Below, one piece after another: positions 1 through 37,163 of a stretch of DNA of 37,163 bases (positions are counted from its first letter, which is position 1; every line of letters starts with the position of its first letter). Under the pieces are notes generated by a model, which searched no databases, had not been told where the DNA came from, and saw nothing but the letters and a program-made list of their open reading frames with translations. Origin of the DNA: a virus; the IMG/VR virus record IMGVR_UViG_3300031841_004194, positions 1 to 37,163 of that record; one strand, given 5' to 3'. The position numbers were made by a program, and so were the translations under genes.

Positions 1-7
1 CGCTCAT
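1..7 (-). CDS. start of a 31-aa cassette ORF split by the window ends (5' part)
   Basis: On the minus strand an ATG at 7-5 follows a GAGGA ribosome binding site with suitable spacing, directly after the attC-like site at 25-90. Only ATG AGC plus one base lies here. Joined to the 3' end of the window with a one-base overlap, the frame runs on into 37163-37074 and gives a 31-residue protein beginning MSGWDELSDT and ending FVKWKEGL. Exact end-to-end joining would instead hit a stop after five codons. Function unknown. Confidence 0.45.
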
Positions 8-24
8 AAGTTATCCTCGGTTTA

Positions 25-90
25 TAACAACCACATAAACTGCGATTGCTTATTCGCTGCGCTCAGCGCAACGCGTTATGGTTAAGGTTA
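25..90 (-). other. attC-like recombination site 1
   Basis: This imperfect palindrome starts on the minus strand at the TAA stop of the gene ending at 88 and finishes at GTTATAA. The arms pair through CAT, GCG and TTGC stretches with unpaired A residues on the plus strand, resembling the extrahelical bases of attC sites. An extra hairpin (GCGCTGAGCGC) lies in the centre. It is the least regular of the sites and the pairing was done by eye. Confidence 0.55.
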
Positions 91-384
91 TGTGTGAATA
101 CGCCCCGGTTGCCCCGGCTCATTGCTTCCAGTGCAATCAAGCCTCTGGTCGCTTGCTTTGGGGCAGCGTTTATTGCCGCACTCGCTACACACAATCATTC
201 TAGTTGCGGTTAAGGGTACTGAGTAAAGCGGCTGTTCCTGAATGGCTTTTTCGTAACCAGCTTGAAATGCGTATCGCATATCTTCTCTGCTGTACAGTAC
301 TTTTGCAGAATCGCTCATACCTAGATCAACGTAATCATCTATCCAGCTCAAAAAAACAGGCCACATTTCGCTTAAAGTTTTCAT
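88..384 (-). CDS. 98-aa phage protein with C-terminal cysteine motif, cassette-borne
   Basis: The start is ATG at 384, preceded by AAAGGA; an upstream TTG at 414 lies inside the attC-like site and is unlikely. The C-terminal third carries C-S-E-C-G-N-K-R-C-P-K-A, a further Cys in LDCTGSNEPGQPG, and a Gly-Pro-rich tail. I recognise this cysteine block from many small phage hypothetical proteins; it probably binds zinc. The N-terminal part is helical and acidic with no known fold. The gene sits between two attC-like sites and looks like a one-gene cassette. Function unknown. Confidence 0.8.
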   Translation of the reverse strand: MKTLSEMWPVFLSWIDDYVDLGMSDSAKVLYSREDMRYAFQAGYEKAIQEQPLYSVPLTATRMIVCSECGNKRCPKASDQRLDCTGSNEPGQPGRIHT

Positions 385-408
385 TTTTATCCTTTTGTTT
401 AAATTACA

Positions 409-467
409 TAACAAGTCACTGCACCTGACCGCGCAAAAAGAAGCGCGGCTGGTGAGCTAAGGTGTTA
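409..467 (-). other. attC-like recombination site 2
   Basis: A 59-bp imperfect inverted repeat has ends TAACA and TGTTA. The inner arms pair as CCGCGC with GCGCGG and CACC with GGTG around a loop of about 8 nt (AAAAAGAA). Plus-strand G and A appear to be unpaired and are separated by about six base pairs, matching the spacing seen at the sites at 10079 and 36999. It lies between the HTH gene and the 98-aa gene. Confidence 0.65.
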
Positions 468-473
468 TGTTTC

Positions 474-917
474 TTAATAGCGGCCTTGCTCGGCTTCTCG
501 AATCTCACAAAATCCAGCGTATCCAAAAAGGGCTATTAGTGCGTCTTCGTCGTCAACAAGATCGAAATCAATATCAGTGAATTTGTTGGCCGCATCATGA
601 AATATATCAACAAGCTCTTGATTTGATTCGTCATCAGAAATAGTTGCTTCATCTTTTCTGCTGCTATTTACGCGCTTAATCTCAGCTAAAATAAAATCTA
701 AAACCGGCTGCATTCTTTCAATCATTTCAAAATCCCTATATTTATTGTTTCTTCTTAGCAAGCATTCAATTGCCAGTGCGGTTTGTGTCATTACTTCTTT
801 GTCGCCGCGCTCTAAATTCACAATGTTTCTTTTGCTTGTCCAGCCAAGCAGCGAGGCAAATTCGGTTTGGTTTAAGCCCAGCAGTTGCCGGGCTAATCTG
901 GTCTGTTTCGCATTCAT
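474..917 (-). CDS. HTH (XRE-type) regulator, 147 aa
   Basis: Residues about 3-55 form a helix-turn-helix of the XRE/Cro type (LLGLNQTEFASLLGW, then NIVNLERGDKEV). The remaining 90 residues are acidic, with a cluster of Asp near the C-terminus and no catalytic motif I recognise. The ATG at 917 overlaps the stop of the 62-aa gene upstream (ATGA), so the two are translationally coupled. It probably represses its own promoter, since two matching palindromes flank and overlap the promoter at 1149-1211. It is not the CI repressor, which lies at 4185. It could be an antitoxin-like autoregulator. Confidence 0.75.
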   Translation of the reverse strand: MNAKQTRLARQLLGLNQTEFASLLGWTSKRNIVNLERGDKEVMTQTALAIECLLRRNNKYRDFEMIERMQPVLDFILAEIKRVNSSRKDEATISDDESNQELVDIFHDAANKFTDIDFDLVDDEDALIALFGYAGFCEIREAEQGRY

Positions 918-1102
918 TTAACAAATACACCTTCGCGTAACATGAAGTTAAATTTAGTCGTAAAGCTCTTTACTTTTTCGCCTGTTTCCAGATTAATGTA
1001 TCGAGTGTTCTTTTTTCCAATTTCAACGATTTCAATCTCAAAACCGTGGTTAGTGTTCTTAAGAATGTCGCCTTTTTTTAGTTCGTCTACTGATTTGATC
1101 AT
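914..1102 (-). CDS. 62-aa partner of the HTH regulator
   Basis: A small basic protein rich in beta-strand-forming residues (KKGDILKNTNHGFEIEIVEIGKK...), suggesting a small barrel; no family recognised. The start at 1102 follows GGAG at 8-nt spacing. It is the first gene of a two-gene unit with the HTH gene and shares a 4-nt ATGA overlap with it. The unit has its own promoter and operators, unlike most cassettes. It could be the effector of a toxin-antitoxin-like pair, but nothing in the sequence shows toxicity. Confidence 0.65.
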   Translation of the reverse strand: MIKSVDELKKGDILKNTNHGFEIEIVEIGKKNTRYINLETGEKVKSFTTKFNFMLREGVFVK

Positions 1103-1119
1103 TGTCTTAGCTCCGGTTT

Positions 1120-1138
1120 GTTAGGGATTTTCCCTAAC
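1120..1138 (-). other. hairpin in the 5' leader of the HTH operon
   Basis: GTTAGGGA TTT TCCCTAAC is a perfect inverted repeat with 8-bp arms. It lies between the promoter and the ribosome binding site of the 62-aa gene, so it would fold in the mRNA leader or serve as a further protein binding site. Confidence 0.5.
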
Positions 1139-1148
1139 TCTTGAAACT

Positions 1149-1177
1149 ATTATAGTGAACTTAGTTCACTTAATCAA
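1149..1177 (-). promoter_or_regulatory. promoter of the HTH/62-aa operon
   Basis: On the minus strand, TTGATT (1177-1172) and a perfect TATAAT (1154-1149) are separated by 17 nt. The spacer is almost entirely filled by the palindrome at 1154-1170, so a bound repressor would block polymerase. Confidence 0.75.
1154..1170. promoter_or_regulatory. operator 1 of the HTH operon
   Basis: AGTGAAC TTA GTTCACT is a perfect 17-bp palindrome lying between the -35 and -10 boxes. The sequence is shared with the second site 41 bp away. Confidence 0.75.
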
Positions 1178-1194
1178 GTAAGCTATACAAATAA

Positions 1195-1211
1195 AGTGAA
1201 ATAAGTTCACT
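1195..1211. promoter_or_regulatory. operator 2 of the HTH operon
   Basis: AGTGAAA TAA GTTCACT differs from operator 1 at one arm position. The start-to-start spacing is 41 bp, near four helical turns, allowing repressor dimers to sit on the same face. It lies upstream of the -35 box. Confidence 0.7.
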
Positions 1212-1239
1212 ATGATTCAGGGTTGGCGCCATCAAAACA

Positions 1240-1303
1240 TAACAACACGCAGCAATCGGACTCTCATACGCTGCGCTCCTTCAAGCCGTTGTGCTCTGGG
1301 TTA
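1240..1303 (-). other. attC-like recombination site 3
   Basis: This 64-bp site begins on the minus strand with the TAA stop of the DUF3850-like gene and ends at GTTATG. The arms pair as GCA-CAA-CGG against GCA(G)CAA(T)CGG, leaving an unpaired G and an unpaired T on the plus (bottom) strand. The same two extrahelical bases are classical in integron attC sites. This is the most canonical of the sites in the window. Confidence 0.7.
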
Positions 1304-1552
1304 TTCTTCTATCACATCCCCAGTTAACGAGAACCCAAACACAACCTGATTGCTTGGTTGGTTGTAGTTTGACACGTATGTAATTTCCGCAAGCTGTGCT
1401 CGTCCTGTTGGGGTTTCTTTTTCTTGCTCAATTAAGTAAACGGTGTCGCCTTTTTGGAAGCCGCGATCATCGTTATTTCTAATCTCAAAGTTCTTCTCAC
1501 CCCTGATTGCAGACTCGAAAAAAGCGGGTAGTATTTTTAGGTGATGCATCAT
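1301..1552 (-). CDS. DUF3850/ASCH-like small protein
   Basis: 83 aa. The segment HLKILPAFFESAIRGEKNFEI followed by RNNDRGF-type residues and QKGDTVYL matches the DUF3850 branch of the ASCH superfamily, small PUA-like barrels thought to bind RNA or modified nucleobases and common in phages. The start is the first of two adjacent ATGs at 1552, preceded by AAGGA. The stop codon forms the edge of the attC-like site at 1240-1303, so the gene may be the first cassette of the array. Its start lies 10 nt beyond the stop of the excisionase-like gene. Confidence 0.75.
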   Translation of the reverse strand: MMHHLKILPAFFESAIRGEKNFEIRNNDDRGFQKGDTVYLIEQEKETPTGRAQLAEITYVSNYNQPSNQVVFGFSLTGDVIEE

Positions 1553-1562
1553 TTTTTAATCC

Positions 1563-1859
1563 TTAAACCACTTTTAATGTGTTTGATGTTTTTAGGGGTT
1601 GCCGTGGTTTTCTGCCTTTTGGTATTTTTATTTGGCGTACTGATTGCTGTTGTGCGGCTTGGTTATAGTTTGACTTTACCCAGTCTTCCATCGCGCGGGT
1701 GCTTATCCATAAGCTGCCAACGGGGTCTTTGAAGATGTGTTTGCCTTCGCGAATGTTGCCTTTGCTTTTCCAGCTGCGCACGGTGGTTTCTTTTTTGTCG
1801 TTTTGGGCGCACCAGACTTTTAGTGGCACCAAATCTTGTGTTTGTTTGTTATTTAGCAT
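1563..1859 (-). CDS. excisionase-like DNA-binding protein
   Basis: 98 aa. A winged-helix pattern is visible: LKVWCAQNDKKETTVRSWKSKGNI, then REGKHIFKDPVGSLWISTRAMEDW, followed by a basic tail (QIKIPKGRKPRQPLK). This is the usual shape of small phage Xis/AlpA-type proteins, which bend attP DNA and direct the integrase toward excision. The position at the distal end of the pL-type operon on the integrase side fits. The start codon lies within the previous gene (11-nt overlap). It could instead be a general regulator. Confidence 0.55.
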   Translation of the reverse strand: MLNNKQTQDLVPLKVWCAQNDKKETTVRSWKSKGNIREGKHIFKDPVGSLWISTRAMEDWVKSNYNQAAQQQSVRQIKIPKGRKPRQPLKTSNTLKVV

Positions 1860-4184: not shown

Positions 4185-4820
4185 TTACACCCAAGTTTTT
4201 AATGATTGTACAACAACGCCGCATAACCTGGCATCGGCTTGCATTTCCATAATGGGGTAACGGGGGTTGATGGGCTTTAGATAGCGTTTCCCGCCATCTA
4301 TCACTAGTTGTTTACAAGTTGCTTCGGTGTTGCCGTTTTGGATAACGATAACAATGCTGTTGTGTTCTGCGATGCGAAGCGGGTCTACGATAACAATTTC
4401 ATTGTCTTTTATATCAGGTTCCATTGAATCGCCTTGTATGCGCAGTGCAAAGGCGTTTTCGCTGGTTGTGACGGTGCTTAAAACCCAATCTTGCTCATCT
4501 TTTGGGTCGTAGTTGTCGCCAATGTCTTTCCAGTTGCCTGCGGCGACACTTGAGATAAGGGGGACGGGTTTAGAATGCACTTGGTAGGTGTTTGGGGCTT
4601 CTTTAACAGCATGGGGCGATTTGCTGGTTCCTTCTGAGAGCCAAGCTGGGTCAACGCCTAAAACATCACAGGCTTTTATAAAATGCGCTCTGGGGATGCC
4701 TCCTCGAACTTTCCATAGGTTTACGTTTTGTGGTTCGGTGCTCATTTTTCTAGCAAATTCTGCTTGGCTGATGCCTTTTTGCTTAAGTGCTAGGTCTAGT
4801 CTTTCTCTAAATTTTTCCAT
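4185..4820 (-). CDS. cI: CI-type repressor, LexA/S24 family
   Basis: 211 aa from ATG 4820. An N-terminal HTH (QAEFARKMSTEPQNVNLWK) is followed by a peptidase S24 domain. The Ala-Gly cleavage site (VAAGN) is at about 94-95, the catalytic Ser in GDSMEP at about 132 and the general-base Lys in TCKQL at about 170. RecA-stimulated self-cleavage should trigger induction. It is divergent from cro across shared operators. Its -10 box (TATACT, 4834-4829) ends 8 nt before the ATG and no Shine-Dalgarno is present, so the transcript is probably leaderless. A TTG at 4826 is an unlikely alternative start. Confidence 0.93.
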   Translation of the reverse strand: MEKFRERLDLALKQKGISQAEFARKMSTEPQNVNLWKVRGGIPRAHFIKACDVLGVDPAWLSEGTSKSPHAVKEAPNTYQVHSKPVPLISSVAAGNWKDIGDNYDPKDEQDWVLSTVTTSENAFALRIQGDSMEPDIKDNEIVIVDPLRIAEHNSIVIVIQNGNTEATCKQLVIDGGKRYLKPINPRYPIMEMQADARLCGVVVQSLKTWV

Positions 4821-4828
4821 ATACAAAA

Positions 4829-9477: not shown

Positions 9478-9668
9478 GTGATGATTTGAGTAAGGAGACA
9501 AGAAAAGTGGAGGAGGCGATACGCGGCGCGCTTCAAAAGCTTCATGAGACGACAGGGTTAATACCTGTTTCTGTATCGTTTAGCCCCGTTGATGTTAGAT
9601 GTGTGGATGATCATGGGAAGCGTAAGCGGGTGGTTATTTCTGATGTGGAAGTGATAGCGAATACTTAA
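9471..9668 (+). CDS. 65-aa hypothetical protein
   Basis: It overlaps the 3' end of the Q gene by 7 nt and is followed by a terminator. It has a helix (LSKETRKVEEAIRGALQKLH) and a short beta-rich end. Function unknown. Confidence 0.65.
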   Translation: MLSDDLSKETRKVEEAIRGALQKLHETTGLIPVSVSFSPVDVRCVDDHGKRKRVVISDVEVIANT

Positions 9669-9684
9669 CGCTTTAGTTAAATAG

Positions 9685-9708
9685 GCCGGTGCTGCTCCGG
9701 CTCTTTTT
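9685..9708 (+). terminator. terminator of the early rightward operon
   Basis: GCCGG (9685-9689) pairs with CCGGC (9697-9701) over a 7-nt loop, followed by TCTTTTT. Confidence 0.7.
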
Positions 9709-9740
9709 AAATGAATGGCTATATTGGATTAGGAGAAACT

Positions 9741-9800
9741 ATGCTTGAAGACATTTTTAAATTTCTAAAAGAAAAATGGTTTAATGACCTGCCGGGGTGA
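9741..9800 (+). CDS. 19-residue micro-ORF
   Basis: ATG with a strong AGGAG at correct spacing encodes MLEDIFKFLKEKWFNDLPG, an amphipathic helix. It lies between the early terminator and the solitary cassette. It may be a real micro-protein or a leader peptide; length alone cannot decide. Confidence 0.4.
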   Translation: MLEDIFKFLKEKWFNDLPG

Positions 9801-9826
9801 GATATGCGGATGATCTAGGAAAAGTT

Positions 9827-9868
9827 ATGAAAGTTTTAGATGCTATAAACATACTGTCAGAAGGGTAA
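9827..9868 (+). CDS. 13-residue micro-ORF
   Basis: The ATG directly follows a GTT core and AGGAAAA. It encodes MKVLDAINILSEG and ends 6 nt before the next gene's ATG, so it could be a leader that couples translation. Confidence 0.3.
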   Translation: MKVLDAINILSEG

Positions 9869-9874
9869 ACTACT

Positions 9875-10081
9875 ATGAGTGAAGCAGTTAATACGAAATT
9901 TTACGTATGGATTAATGCGAAATCAACGCCTGTAACTAGAGCTTATTCTTATGAGGATGAAATAGAGCTATGTGCGGAACAAGAATCCCCGCCAGCCGGC
10001 GCATATACATTACGAACTGGATCAAAGTCTGAGTTGATTGCTCGTTATAATCTGGATGAATCAGATTTTGATAACACATAA
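9875..10081 (+). CDS. 68-aa cassette gene product
   Basis: A small acidic protein (MSEAVNTKFYVWINAKSTPV, later YEDEIELCAEQE) of unknown function. Its TAA stop forms the first bases of the attC-like site, exactly as in cassettes of the main array. The nearby AGAAGGG can serve as a ribosome binding site. Base composition is more A+T-rich than the Q gene before it. Confidence 0.65.
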   Translation: MSEAVNTKFYVWINAKSTPVTRAYSYEDEIELCAEQESPPAGAYTLRTGSKSELIARYNLDESDFDNT

Positions 10082-10130
10082 CACCCGCATAACCGGCGCG
10101 GTTTTTAGCGTCCGGTTCATGCGCTGGTTA
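10079..10130 (+). other. attC-like recombination site 4
   Basis: A 52-bp imperfect palindrome. GCAT (10087-10090) pairs with ATGC (10119-10122), AACCGG (10091-10096) with CCGGTT (10112-10117), and CGC (10097-10099) with GCG (10108-10110). C10118 and T10111 are unpaired, i.e. G and A on the bottom strand, six base pairs apart. The outer ends are TAAC and GGTTAGAA. Confidence 0.65.
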
Positions 10131-35202: not shown

Positions 35203-35229
35203 AGAGTTCGAGTCTCTCCTTTCGCACCA
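35203..35229 (+). other. attP core: 3' end of a tRNA gene
   Basis: The sequence has a T loop TTCGAGT with stem CTCTC, acceptor strand CTTTCGC, discriminator A and CCA, i.e. the last about 27 nt of a tRNA whose acceptor begins GCGAAAG. This acceptor fits tRNA-Leu, probably the UAG isoacceptor, in gammaproteobacteria. There is no 5' half upstream. Phage genes lie on both sides, so this is attP, and integration would rebuild the tRNA. Confidence 0.8.
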
Positions 35230-35294
35230 TCTATTTAGTTACAAATCAATAACTTATATTTTATAAAGTTCTATTTGACACGGTTTAGACCCTT

Positions 35295-36458
35295 TTACTC
35301 TTGGGATGGAGTCGATTCGCGCATTATTTGTGACTGTTTTGCTTTGTCGGATTTTTCTATCCATCGTGCGTAGCTTCTGAAGAATTCTTTTAGTGAATTG
35401 CCCATTTGATCGGCTAGGTAGCCGGGTGAGCAGCCTTGTGTGAGGTAGTAGCTGGCGTAGCTGTGGCGCATGTTGTACATAGGGCGGTGGCGTAGCTTTA
35501 AGTGCGTGAGTACGCGTTTCCATGCGAGTTGCAGGGGTTCTATGTTGATGAGTGGGTTTTGGTTGGCCTGGGTGAATACCCATTCTTTTTTGAAGCCGCT
35601 TATTTCGCGCATGATGTTTATTGCGTGTTCTGTGCGGCTGTTTAGGTCGATGATTCGGCTTTCGCCTGTTTTTGTGCCTTGTTCGATGCCGTTGCGGGTT
35701 CGTTTTCGGCAGATGCGTGCTTCTTGGTTGCGGGTGGATATTTCGTTCCAGAGCAGGGCTGTTGGCTCGCTTGGTGATCTTACGCCGCTATAAAAGCAAA
35801 ATTCGATATAGGCTGCGTGTTCTTTGCTTTCGCGCGCGTAGAATGCGTCTATTATTGCGTTGGCTTCTACGTTGTCGAACGGGTCGGGTAGGGGTGTTGG
35901 TCTGGTTTTGTTGGTGATTTGTTCGCAGGGGTTTTGGTGCTTGAGTATTGCGCCGTCTTTTACGGCTTGGTTGAATGTGCCGCGCAAGCAGGTTAGCCAA
36001 TCGTTATAGGTGCTAACGCTGGGTGTTTTGTTGTATTCTTGCTGAAATTCATCTATTGCGCTGGCGAGTGTGTCTGATATTAAGCTGTAGCTTATGCTGG
36101 CTATTTGTCGATCGCTTAAATAGGGCATCCATATCCGGTTGAGGATGCCTTTCCATTTGTAGCTTGTGCGCTCTGTCCAGCCGTTTTGTGGGTTGTTCAC
36201 CCAAGATTGTGCGTAGTGATGAAATGTGCCTGCGCTGCGGTTGGTGGCGCGTGGGTCGTTCGGGAAGTAGTCACTCCACCTGAATGTGCCGTATTTGCAT
36301 TTTAAGCGGATTTGTTCGCGTAGTTCGGCGGCTTTTTGGACGTTTGCGGGTGTGGCGGTCCATCCATCGAGTGTGACATAGCTGTATTTTTTGTCGCCTG
36401 GTGGTTTAAATTTTATTTGTATTTGACCGCCGCGAATTCGTACGCCTTTTGTTGCCAT
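35295..36458 (-). CDS. int: tyrosine integrase
   Basis: 387 aa from ATG 36458, behind AAGGAAGA; a longer ORF to 36557 overlaps the neighbour. The N-terminal arm domain (GVRIRGGQIQIKFKPPGDKK) is of the DUF3596 type. Catalytic Arg lies in YSGVRSPSEP, the second Arg in YNMRHSYAS (Tyr in place of the usual His three residues before it), Asn in MGNS where His is usual, and the nucleophile Tyr in SYARW. It joins attP at 35203 to the host tRNA. It is not an integron IntI. Confidence 0.93.
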   Translation of the reverse strand: MATKGVRIRGGQIQIKFKPPGDKKYSYVTLDGWTATPANVQKAAELREQIRLKCKYGTFRWSDYFPNDPRATNRSAGTFHHYAQSWVNNPQNGWTERTSYKWKGILNRIWMPYLSDRQIASISYSLISDTLASAIDEFQQEYNKTPSVSTYNDWLTCLRGTFNQAVKDGAILKHQNPCEQITNKTRPTPLPDPFDNVEANAIIDAFYARESKEHAAYIEFCFYSGVRSPSEPTALLWNEISTRNQEARICRKRTRNGIEQGTKTGESRIIDLNSRTEHAINIMREISGFKKEWVFTQANQNPLINIEPLQLAWKRVLTHLKLRHRPMYNMRHSYASYYLTQGCSPGYLADQMGNSLKEFFRSYARWIEKSDKAKQSQIMRESTPSQE

Positions 36459-36471
36459 GTTCTTCCTTTTT

Positions 36472-36759
36472 TTACATTGCTGATACGCGGGGGAATGCTT
36501 TGCGCGTCCATTCTTGTACGCGACTCCACCCGATTCTTGATTTCCATAGTTTGCCATCTATATAGCAGTCGTAACAATCGATTCTATCTGTTTTGCGCAA
36601 TTCCATGCGGTATTCTTTGCGACCAAAGTCGTGATCTATGATGATGATTTCACGACGTAGGTCGGGTAGTTTAGCTGGATAGTCTGGCCGTGGGCTTTCT
36701 AAGCGTATTCGTTCACGGGCTTTTAACGCTTGTTTTGAACGTTTGGTTGTTCTGTACAT
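36472..36759 (-). CDS. 95-aa phage protein next to integrase
   Basis: Start ATG 36759 with AGGAG. LESPRPDYPAKLPDLRREII, RKTDRIDCYDCYIDGK and RIGWSRVQEWTRKAFPRV are strongly conserved in small proteins beside phage integrases. The protein is basic and might assist recombination. It ends 13 nt before the integrase start. Function not established. Confidence 0.8.
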   Translation of the reverse strand: MYRTTKRSKQALKARERIRLESPRPDYPAKLPDLRREIIIIDHDFGRKEYRMELRKTDRIDCYDCYIDGKLWKSRIGWSRVQEWTRKAFPRVSAM

Positions 36760-36796
36760 TTTTTCTCCTACCTTGCACGGTTAGGTTAATGCGGTG

Positions 36797-36985
36797 TTAT
36801 AAGGAATGGTCGCAGTAATCATTTAGCGCTTCAACCCAGTTGCATTTTTCACATCTAGTCTTACCGTTCGGGCACTTGCAAACTCTATTACGTCCACAAT
36901 TTTTACAGGCTGAGCCAGTGTATTCACCCAGTGACCAGTCTTTTATCTGTTTCTGCTCTTCTTTGTCGTCAATATCAAGTTCCAC
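36797..36985 (-). CDS. 62-aa zinc-ribbon cassette protein
   Basis: GTG start at 36985 with AAGGAG, 14 nt after the attC-like site. The acidic N-terminus is followed by C-x2-C-x5-C-x-C and C-x2-C (ACKNCGRNRVCKCPNGKT and RCEKCNW), likely a double zinc ribbon. Its TAA stop begins a TAACACC motif. Function unknown. Confidence 0.7.
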   Translation of the reverse strand: MELDIDDKEEQKQIKDWSLGEYTGSACKNCGRNRVCKCPNGKTRCEKCNWVEALNDYCDHSL

Positions 36986-36998
36986 ACCAATCTCCTTA

Positions 36999-37076
36999 TA
37001 ACCAATCGCTCAAATTGAGCGTTAAAGTTTCGCGCCTGTTCTGTTTACGTCATGCGCCAATTTAGCTAGAGCGTTA
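36999..37076 (-). other. attC-like recombination site 0
   Basis: 78 bp. On the minus strand it begins with the TAA stop of the 31-aa gene and ends at GGTTATAA. Arms pair as GCT-AAATTG-GCG with unpaired C and A on the plus strand six base pairs apart. The right arm also contains a local palindrome CGCTCAA-A-TTGAGCG, so a simple hairpin is an alternative reading. Confidence 0.6.
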
Positions 37077-37163
37077 TAAACCTTCTTTCCACTTAACAAA
37101 TTCGTCATCACCCATCACTTGAGCGAGCGTAGTTCCGAGCGTGTCAGAAAGTTCATCCCACCC
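37074..37163 (-). CDS. 31-aa cassette ORF, 3' part
   Basis: Open from the window end: GWDELSDTLGTTLAQVMGDD then EFVKWKEGL and TAA. With a one-base overlap it joins the ATG at 7-5. The protein is acidic and helical and of unknown function. Its stop codon opens the attC-like site. Confidence 0.55.
   Translation of the reverse strand, partial: GWDELSDTLGTTLAQVMGDDEFVKWKEGL

Follow-up and report, generated by a model that had tools for sequence, protein, structure and literature searches.

Two arrays of inverted, integron-type cassettes in a temperate phage genome, probably mobilised in trans by an integron integrase

The window, that is, the whole stretch of 37,163 nucleotides analysed here (IMGVR_UViG_3300031841_004194), carries an integrase gene, an xis-like gene, an S24-peptidase repressor and a DUF3850 gene (Table 1). 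The xis-like gene has no Pfam or PHROG match. A putative attP at 35205-35230 consists of the 3' end of a tRNA gene (AGAGTTCGAGTCTCTCCTTTCGCACCA) and is conserved in the relative G001 (IMGVR_UViG_3300045790_002272; 34,556 bp with a 127-bp terminal repeat); a tRNA scan of the window gave no complete tRNA. Two arrays of small genes and attC sites are found. Array 1 extends from 36797 to the window end and then over 1-1300, has the DUF3850 gene on one side and the xis-like gene on the other, and holds four cassettes (A-D). Array 2 (9666-10130) was found through a blast match, and has its attC sites on the minus strand and its genes on the plus strand. Genes of array 1 are co-directional with the leftward genes including xis and int, and genes of array 2 with the rightward genes.

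Table 1. Features of the two arrays and of the genes around them (a slash between bases marks the cut point)
Feature	Position	Strand	Remarks
Cassette B, second part	1..75	+	Start codon and Shine-Dalgarno on - (GAGGATAACTTATG); attC 25-78
Cassette C, 389 bp	76..464	+	ORF 88-414 on -; attC 409-467
Cassette D, 836 bp	465..1300	+	HTH regulator 474-917 and 62-aa ORF 914-1102, both on -; attC 1240-1303
DUF3850/ASCH gene, fixed right flank of array 1	1301..1552	-	Pfam E 4e-20
S24-peptidase repressor	4185..4826	-	Peptidase_S24 E 2e-26; upstream end of the leftward operon holding array 1
Cassette E, 413 bp	9669..10081	-	ORF 9875-10081 on +; attC 9666-9721
attC_a, conserved anchor site of array 2	10079..10130	-	Present in G001, G015 and L122
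Phage tyrosine integrase, not IntI	35295..36557	-	Phage_integrase and Arm-DNA-bind_2 domains
xis-like small gene	36472..36759	-	By position only; 96% identical in G001
Left boundary of array 1	36775..36799	+	GGTTAGGTTAATGCGGTG/TTA; fixed edge adjoining xis; same in G001 as far as GTTAT, then unrelated
Cassette A, 277 bp	36797..37073	+	ORF 36797-36985 on -; attC 36999-37076
Cassette B, first part	37074..37163	+	3' end of gene, stop codon at the cut; resumes at 1-75 if circular

The cassette limits in array 1 are G/TTA steps (36796/36797, 37073/37074, 75/76, 464/465, and 1300/1301). Four sites that start with TAAC and end with GTTA (25-78, 409-467, 1240-1303, and 36999-37076) lie on the plus strand and bound small ORFs, all on the minus strand, with stop codons fused to the sites. 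These stop codons are at the R' (GTTA) side and the start codons at the R'' (TAACAA) side, which is the reverse of ordinary cassettes. A preliminary description, made from sequence alone, had claimed these four sites, the fused stop codons, and four to five tiny-gene cassettes if the sequence is circular. All of these held, the cassettes of array 1 being four; the inverted orientation of the genes and the second array had been missed. It had also placed the array between excisionase and integrase. This part failed: array 1 lies upstream of xis, from DUF3850 to xis, and not between xis and int, which overlap. The boundary next to xis (36775-36799) is recognised by neither of the attC covariance models described below. 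It may be attI-like or a remnant R' box of an attC; no attI model was applied, and which of the two it is remains unresolved.

Cassette B is cut by the record ends, and no terminal repeat was found in the window record. Its gene is an open frame on the minus strand, with the start codon at 1-7 and a TAA end at 37074-37076. Joining the window ends directly leaves the two parts out of frame and was rejected; since the frame is broken at the direct join, some bases must be missing. A circular or circularly permuted genome, of which a short piece is missing from the record, is the probable explanation.

Those cassette genes for which a match was obtained fall into phage families of unknown function or code for an HTH regulator. 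The ORF of cassette A (62 aa) matches phrog_24897 (PHROG, E 3e-17), and the regulator in cassette D matches HTH_3 (E 6e-6). An imperfect palindrome (80%) is found at 1149-1216 in cassette D, upstream of this regulator. It is likely to be the regulator's operator, and it is possible that the cassette carries its own promoter. The stop codon of the DUF3850 gene is the TTA of the cut site. No defence genes were given by PADLOC, HTH domains apart, and an Rfam search at gathering threshold gave no match.

The relative G001 is 93.6% identical to the window in int/xis and 96% in the right flank of array 1 (from GTTATTC onward). At the position of array 1, however, it has 11 cassettes, all different from those in the window. 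At the left break GGTTAATGCGGTG/TTAT is common to both phages and the remainder is unrelated; at the right break, which is the right edge of cassette D, unrelated sequence is followed by the common G/TTATTCTTC. The breaks fall in the GTTA box on both sides. Cassette E of array 2 is cleanly missing from G001, where the sequences flanking 9669-10081 are contiguous (GGGTG/TTAAGTATTC). One G001 cassette is duplicated within G001 at 99.4%, and the neighbours of the two copies differ on both sides. At most breaks the linkers are unrelated, the common part being G/TTA or a few bases more. GTTA occurs in the window at ~0.006 per base, and the chance that eight breaks all fall at GTTA is roughly estimated to be <1e-6 with linked ends counted together. 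This estimate rests on the GTTA density, allowing ~seven positions per site.

Could these be ordinary phage mosaic modules, in which conserved hairpin linkers between small genes provide the short stretches of homology used by general or Red-type recombination, without any integron integrase? Small early genes are freely shuffled by phages. Two of the sites are poor attC folds, and homologous exchange would be possible between several linkers (types 1 and 2), which are near-identical. Against this, homologous recombination needs more than the few bases shared at most breaks, every cut is at the R' end, and a generic attC model gives correctly oriented matches of 18-29 bits. The mosaic explanation is therefore unlikely.

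Two covariance models were used for attC sites: R1, built only from 18 Shewanella, Vibrio, and Tn7 attCs, and R2, which combines 17 sites from related phages (the window excluded) with five bacterial sites. R1 gives 29.4 bits at 10079-10130 (E 2e-5) and 18.3 bits at 409-467 (E 0.015), and nothing at 1240-1303 or 36999-37076. Its best scores in relatives are 29.4 (G001), 27.2 (G014), and 26.7 bits (G015), and it also detects four attCs of phage H101. The four best R2 matches in the window (10079-10130, 9666-9721, 409-467, and 36999-37024) are all on cassette boundaries. Site 25-78 reaches only 9-10 bits by the attC models (9 bits by R1), near background. Bottom-strand fold z-scores are -3.56 (10079), -2.75 (409), -1.82 (36999), -1.81 (9666), -1.48 (25), and -0.45 (1240). 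Sites 25-78 and 1240-1303 are thus structurally weak, with background-level scores and poor folds, and the R'' of 9666-9721 is decayed or lost (at 9721). Nevertheless, the array 1 sites other than 409-467, weak by model, are placed at cassette boundaries, and the junction 1300/1301 is a proven break despite the weak site 1240-1303. Comparative breakpoints are far stronger evidence than fold scores. Note that these are small, home-made covariance models and that the sequence records are contigs of uncultivated origin. No convincing attC was found in more distant relatives (G002, G003, G016, and G017) or in the Methylophaga and Methylobacter prophage loci.

Judged by longest ORF only, the genes are antisense to their own attC in 26/26 cassettes from five phages (23 cassettes once shared and duplicate ones are removed). 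In bacterial control arrays (Shewanella, Vibrio, R721, Methylobacter marinus, Marinobacter, and Methylophaga) the count is 6/44 (Fisher p about 1e-12 vs the phage cassettes). A further phage, L122 (IMGVR_UViG_3300031841_003411), is mixed, with 2/3 antisense. In 18 of the 26 cassettes the gene ends on the cut site, whose TTA serves as its stop codon. All four type-2 attCs read CAACTGGAG(A/C)TA(C/T)TTGTTATG in gene direction, and in all four this motif is the Shine-Dalgarno and start codon (ATG) of the gene in the same cassette. Fold energies of bottom vs top strands do not discriminate the orientation (15/21), so the orientation has to be taken from the attC models and the breakpoints. These two fix it independently: R1 matches in the window and its relatives lie in the orientation demanded by the breaks, and the breaks are always at the GTTA end.

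Cassettes are also shared between unrelated phages. Cassette A is 100% identical in G015 (IMGVR_UViG_3300031841_004254; 90+90 bp), from G/TTA on, after a different attC. G015 has a T4-like portal protein and integrases other than that of the window. A repeat in G015, 88% identical (GCGCCAATACTAACACTTCTACCCGCC...), occurs at the array end and in the array interior (L083 90-160, L079 9860-9920). The ORF of cassette E is 95% identical in G015, where it also exists as a cassette. It is paired with different attCs in the two phages, and therefore a single IntI event is not sufficient as an explanation. The 26-base type-1 attC core of G001 is found in two other viral contigs, one of which is G015. 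Related attC types are found in G014 (IMGVR_UViG_3300027852_000195), in L122, a phage with RecT, and in G449 (IMGVR_UViG_3300005056_000227), a phage with a MuB-like AAA protein. attC_a is 100% identical over 59 bp at 3776-3834 of L122 (reverse-complement coordinates), beside unrelated genes (RecT region); the left edge of this copy is not at the GTT cut. The anchor attC_a itself has moved between phages.

The arrays might instead be relics: an ancestral phage would have picked up part of a host chromosomal integron on one occasion, and decay would have followed. The lost R'' at 9721 and the weak sites 25-78 and 1240-1303 are in favour of this, and chromosomal integron fragments have been described in Vibrio phages (Qi et al., PMC9892861). 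However, array content has turned over completely between phages with 94% identical int/xis, and an unrelated phage has an identical cassette. The type-1 attC core is in 0 of 84,980 bacterial and archaeal species genomes, and the cassette genes match phage families. A relic is thus very unlikely.

As for the enzyme, no TIGR02249 (IntI) match over the cut-off was found in the window record, G000, G001, G014-G018, or G449. The phage's own tyrosine integrase, or another phage tyrosine recombinase such as those of G015, could be supposed to act on the attC-like sites: a tyrosine recombinase gene adjoins array 1, and G015 has two. But the window enzyme has an arm-binding domain and lies beside the putative tRNA-3'-end attP (~35205-35230), it is shared only by G001 among the array phages tested (G014 and G015 do not have it), and no phage recombinase scores as IntI. 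Such a role is very improbable.

The best explanation, held at about 0.8 and without experiment, is that the window contains two CALIN-type arrays, on whose cassettes an integron integrase acts in trans and whose genes are inverted for reading by phage operons. A CALIN has at least two attC sites close together and no intI nearby; both are met, the sites by model being the two in 9666-10130 and 409-467. A complete integron has intI, attI, and Pc, and this is not met as IntI is absent. An integron cassette is a mobile unit with G/TTRRRY cut points and one attC, which is met through gain and loss, duplication, and sharing; the usual, though not absolute, agreement of gene and attC direction is not met. 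Cassette boundaries, presence and absence, sharing between phages, and orientation are shown. The enzyme being IntI, its host origin, SOS timing, expression, and bottom-strand recombination are inferred. Against this reading stand the two weak sites, the lost R'' of 9666-9721, the absence of a phage IntI, and the unknown host. The integron-cassette reading of the preliminary description is supported. It was to be refuted by a lack of clean gain or loss at GTT, but such gain and loss was found in relatives: array 1 contents are replaced, a cassette of array 2 is absent from G001, cassette A is in G015, and a cassette is duplicated in G001. Its claim that IntI is missing held; attC scores near background, the other possible refutation, were true for two of the four sites, and the use of the host's IntI is still inference only.

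In the proposed mechanism, the unit of an array is one small phage gene with one attC, gained, lost, or swapped through recombination at G/TTA, which would take place on the folded bottom strand. The inferred catalyst is an integron integrase working in trans, with a chromosomal integron of the host as its most likely source. The attC stands in front of the gene, with the cut-site TTA usually as stop codon and, in some attCs, a Shine-Dalgarno and start. Captured cassettes would be expressible at once, because the arrays are in leftward and rightward operons with genes facing the operon. The S24 repressor implies SOS induction. It is known that intI genes are commonly LexA-controlled, and in the Shewanella prophage M16-3 the annotation includes a LexA site upstream of intI. 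Supply of IntI at induction is therefore possible, and prophage induction could provide it during phage replication, when single strands are exposed. The window host is unidentified because there is no close prophage (57 genomes from the family of the Methylophaga relative were covered) and the type-1 attC core is absent from the genomes searched, including 369 genomes of the class. An intact IntI is present in Methylobacter marinus and Marinobacter, which are among the hosts of relatives, but of more distant relatives only.

In a bolder reading, phages of marine or aquatic bacteria would have their own pool of inverted cassettes, with the attC as translation leader and the cut site as stop codon. 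This pool would be exchanged among unrelated temperate and Mu-like phages via host IntI at induction, and would not be in bacterial chromosomes. Taken whole, this reading could as well be wrong as right. The finding as a whole would show that phages routinely exchange small accessory genes by integron recombination, in cassettes adapted to expression by the phage. It offers a specific and testable mechanism for the rapid mosaicism seen among the small early genes of phages. It also suggests a cassette reservoir that is invisible to scans of bacterial genomes.

attC clusters without IntI are known in virulent and temperate phages (TJE1, P12002L, H101, and MW202573), and five of six tested phage attCs were recombined by IntI1 at G/TT (Qi et al. 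2023, PMC9892861). Phage attC arrays and their recombination by IntI1 are thus already known. The window is like these phage CALINs in having attC clusters in a phage genome where IntI is absent. It differs in that its array is wholly different between near-identical phages, the same cassettes occur in phages that are not related, and all genes run against their attC. The cassettes of Pseudoalteromonas phage H101 are described as typically oriented (Qi et al., PMC9892861); in our own count by longest ORF, 2/3 of its cassette genes are antisense (L119 25900-28000). H101, which was used in the published IntI1 assays, also has repeated blocks beside attC sites. Sedentary chromosomal integrons (Vibrio, Shewanella), with IntI, attI, and Pc, have the same attC architecture (TAACAA...GCGTTA) and G/TT cut, and likewise hold small cassette genes of unknown function. 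Unlike them, the window has no intI and no recognised attI or Pc, and its genes are opposite to attC. Their transcription has to be supplied by phage operons. Vibrio phage Va_90-11-286_p16 and Shewanella prophage M16-3 likewise have integron cassettes in a temperate phage or prophage. In contrast to the window, theirs are pieces of host integrons that include IntI, and most of the genes lie in the sense direction (antisense cassettes 3/13 in p16 and 1/15 in M16-3). No description of systematically inverted cassettes, or of exchange among unrelated phages, was found in the literature searched (mostly not subscription journals). What is new here, in all likelihood though not with certainty, is the inverted architecture, the sharing between unrelated phages, and the direct evidence of exchange.
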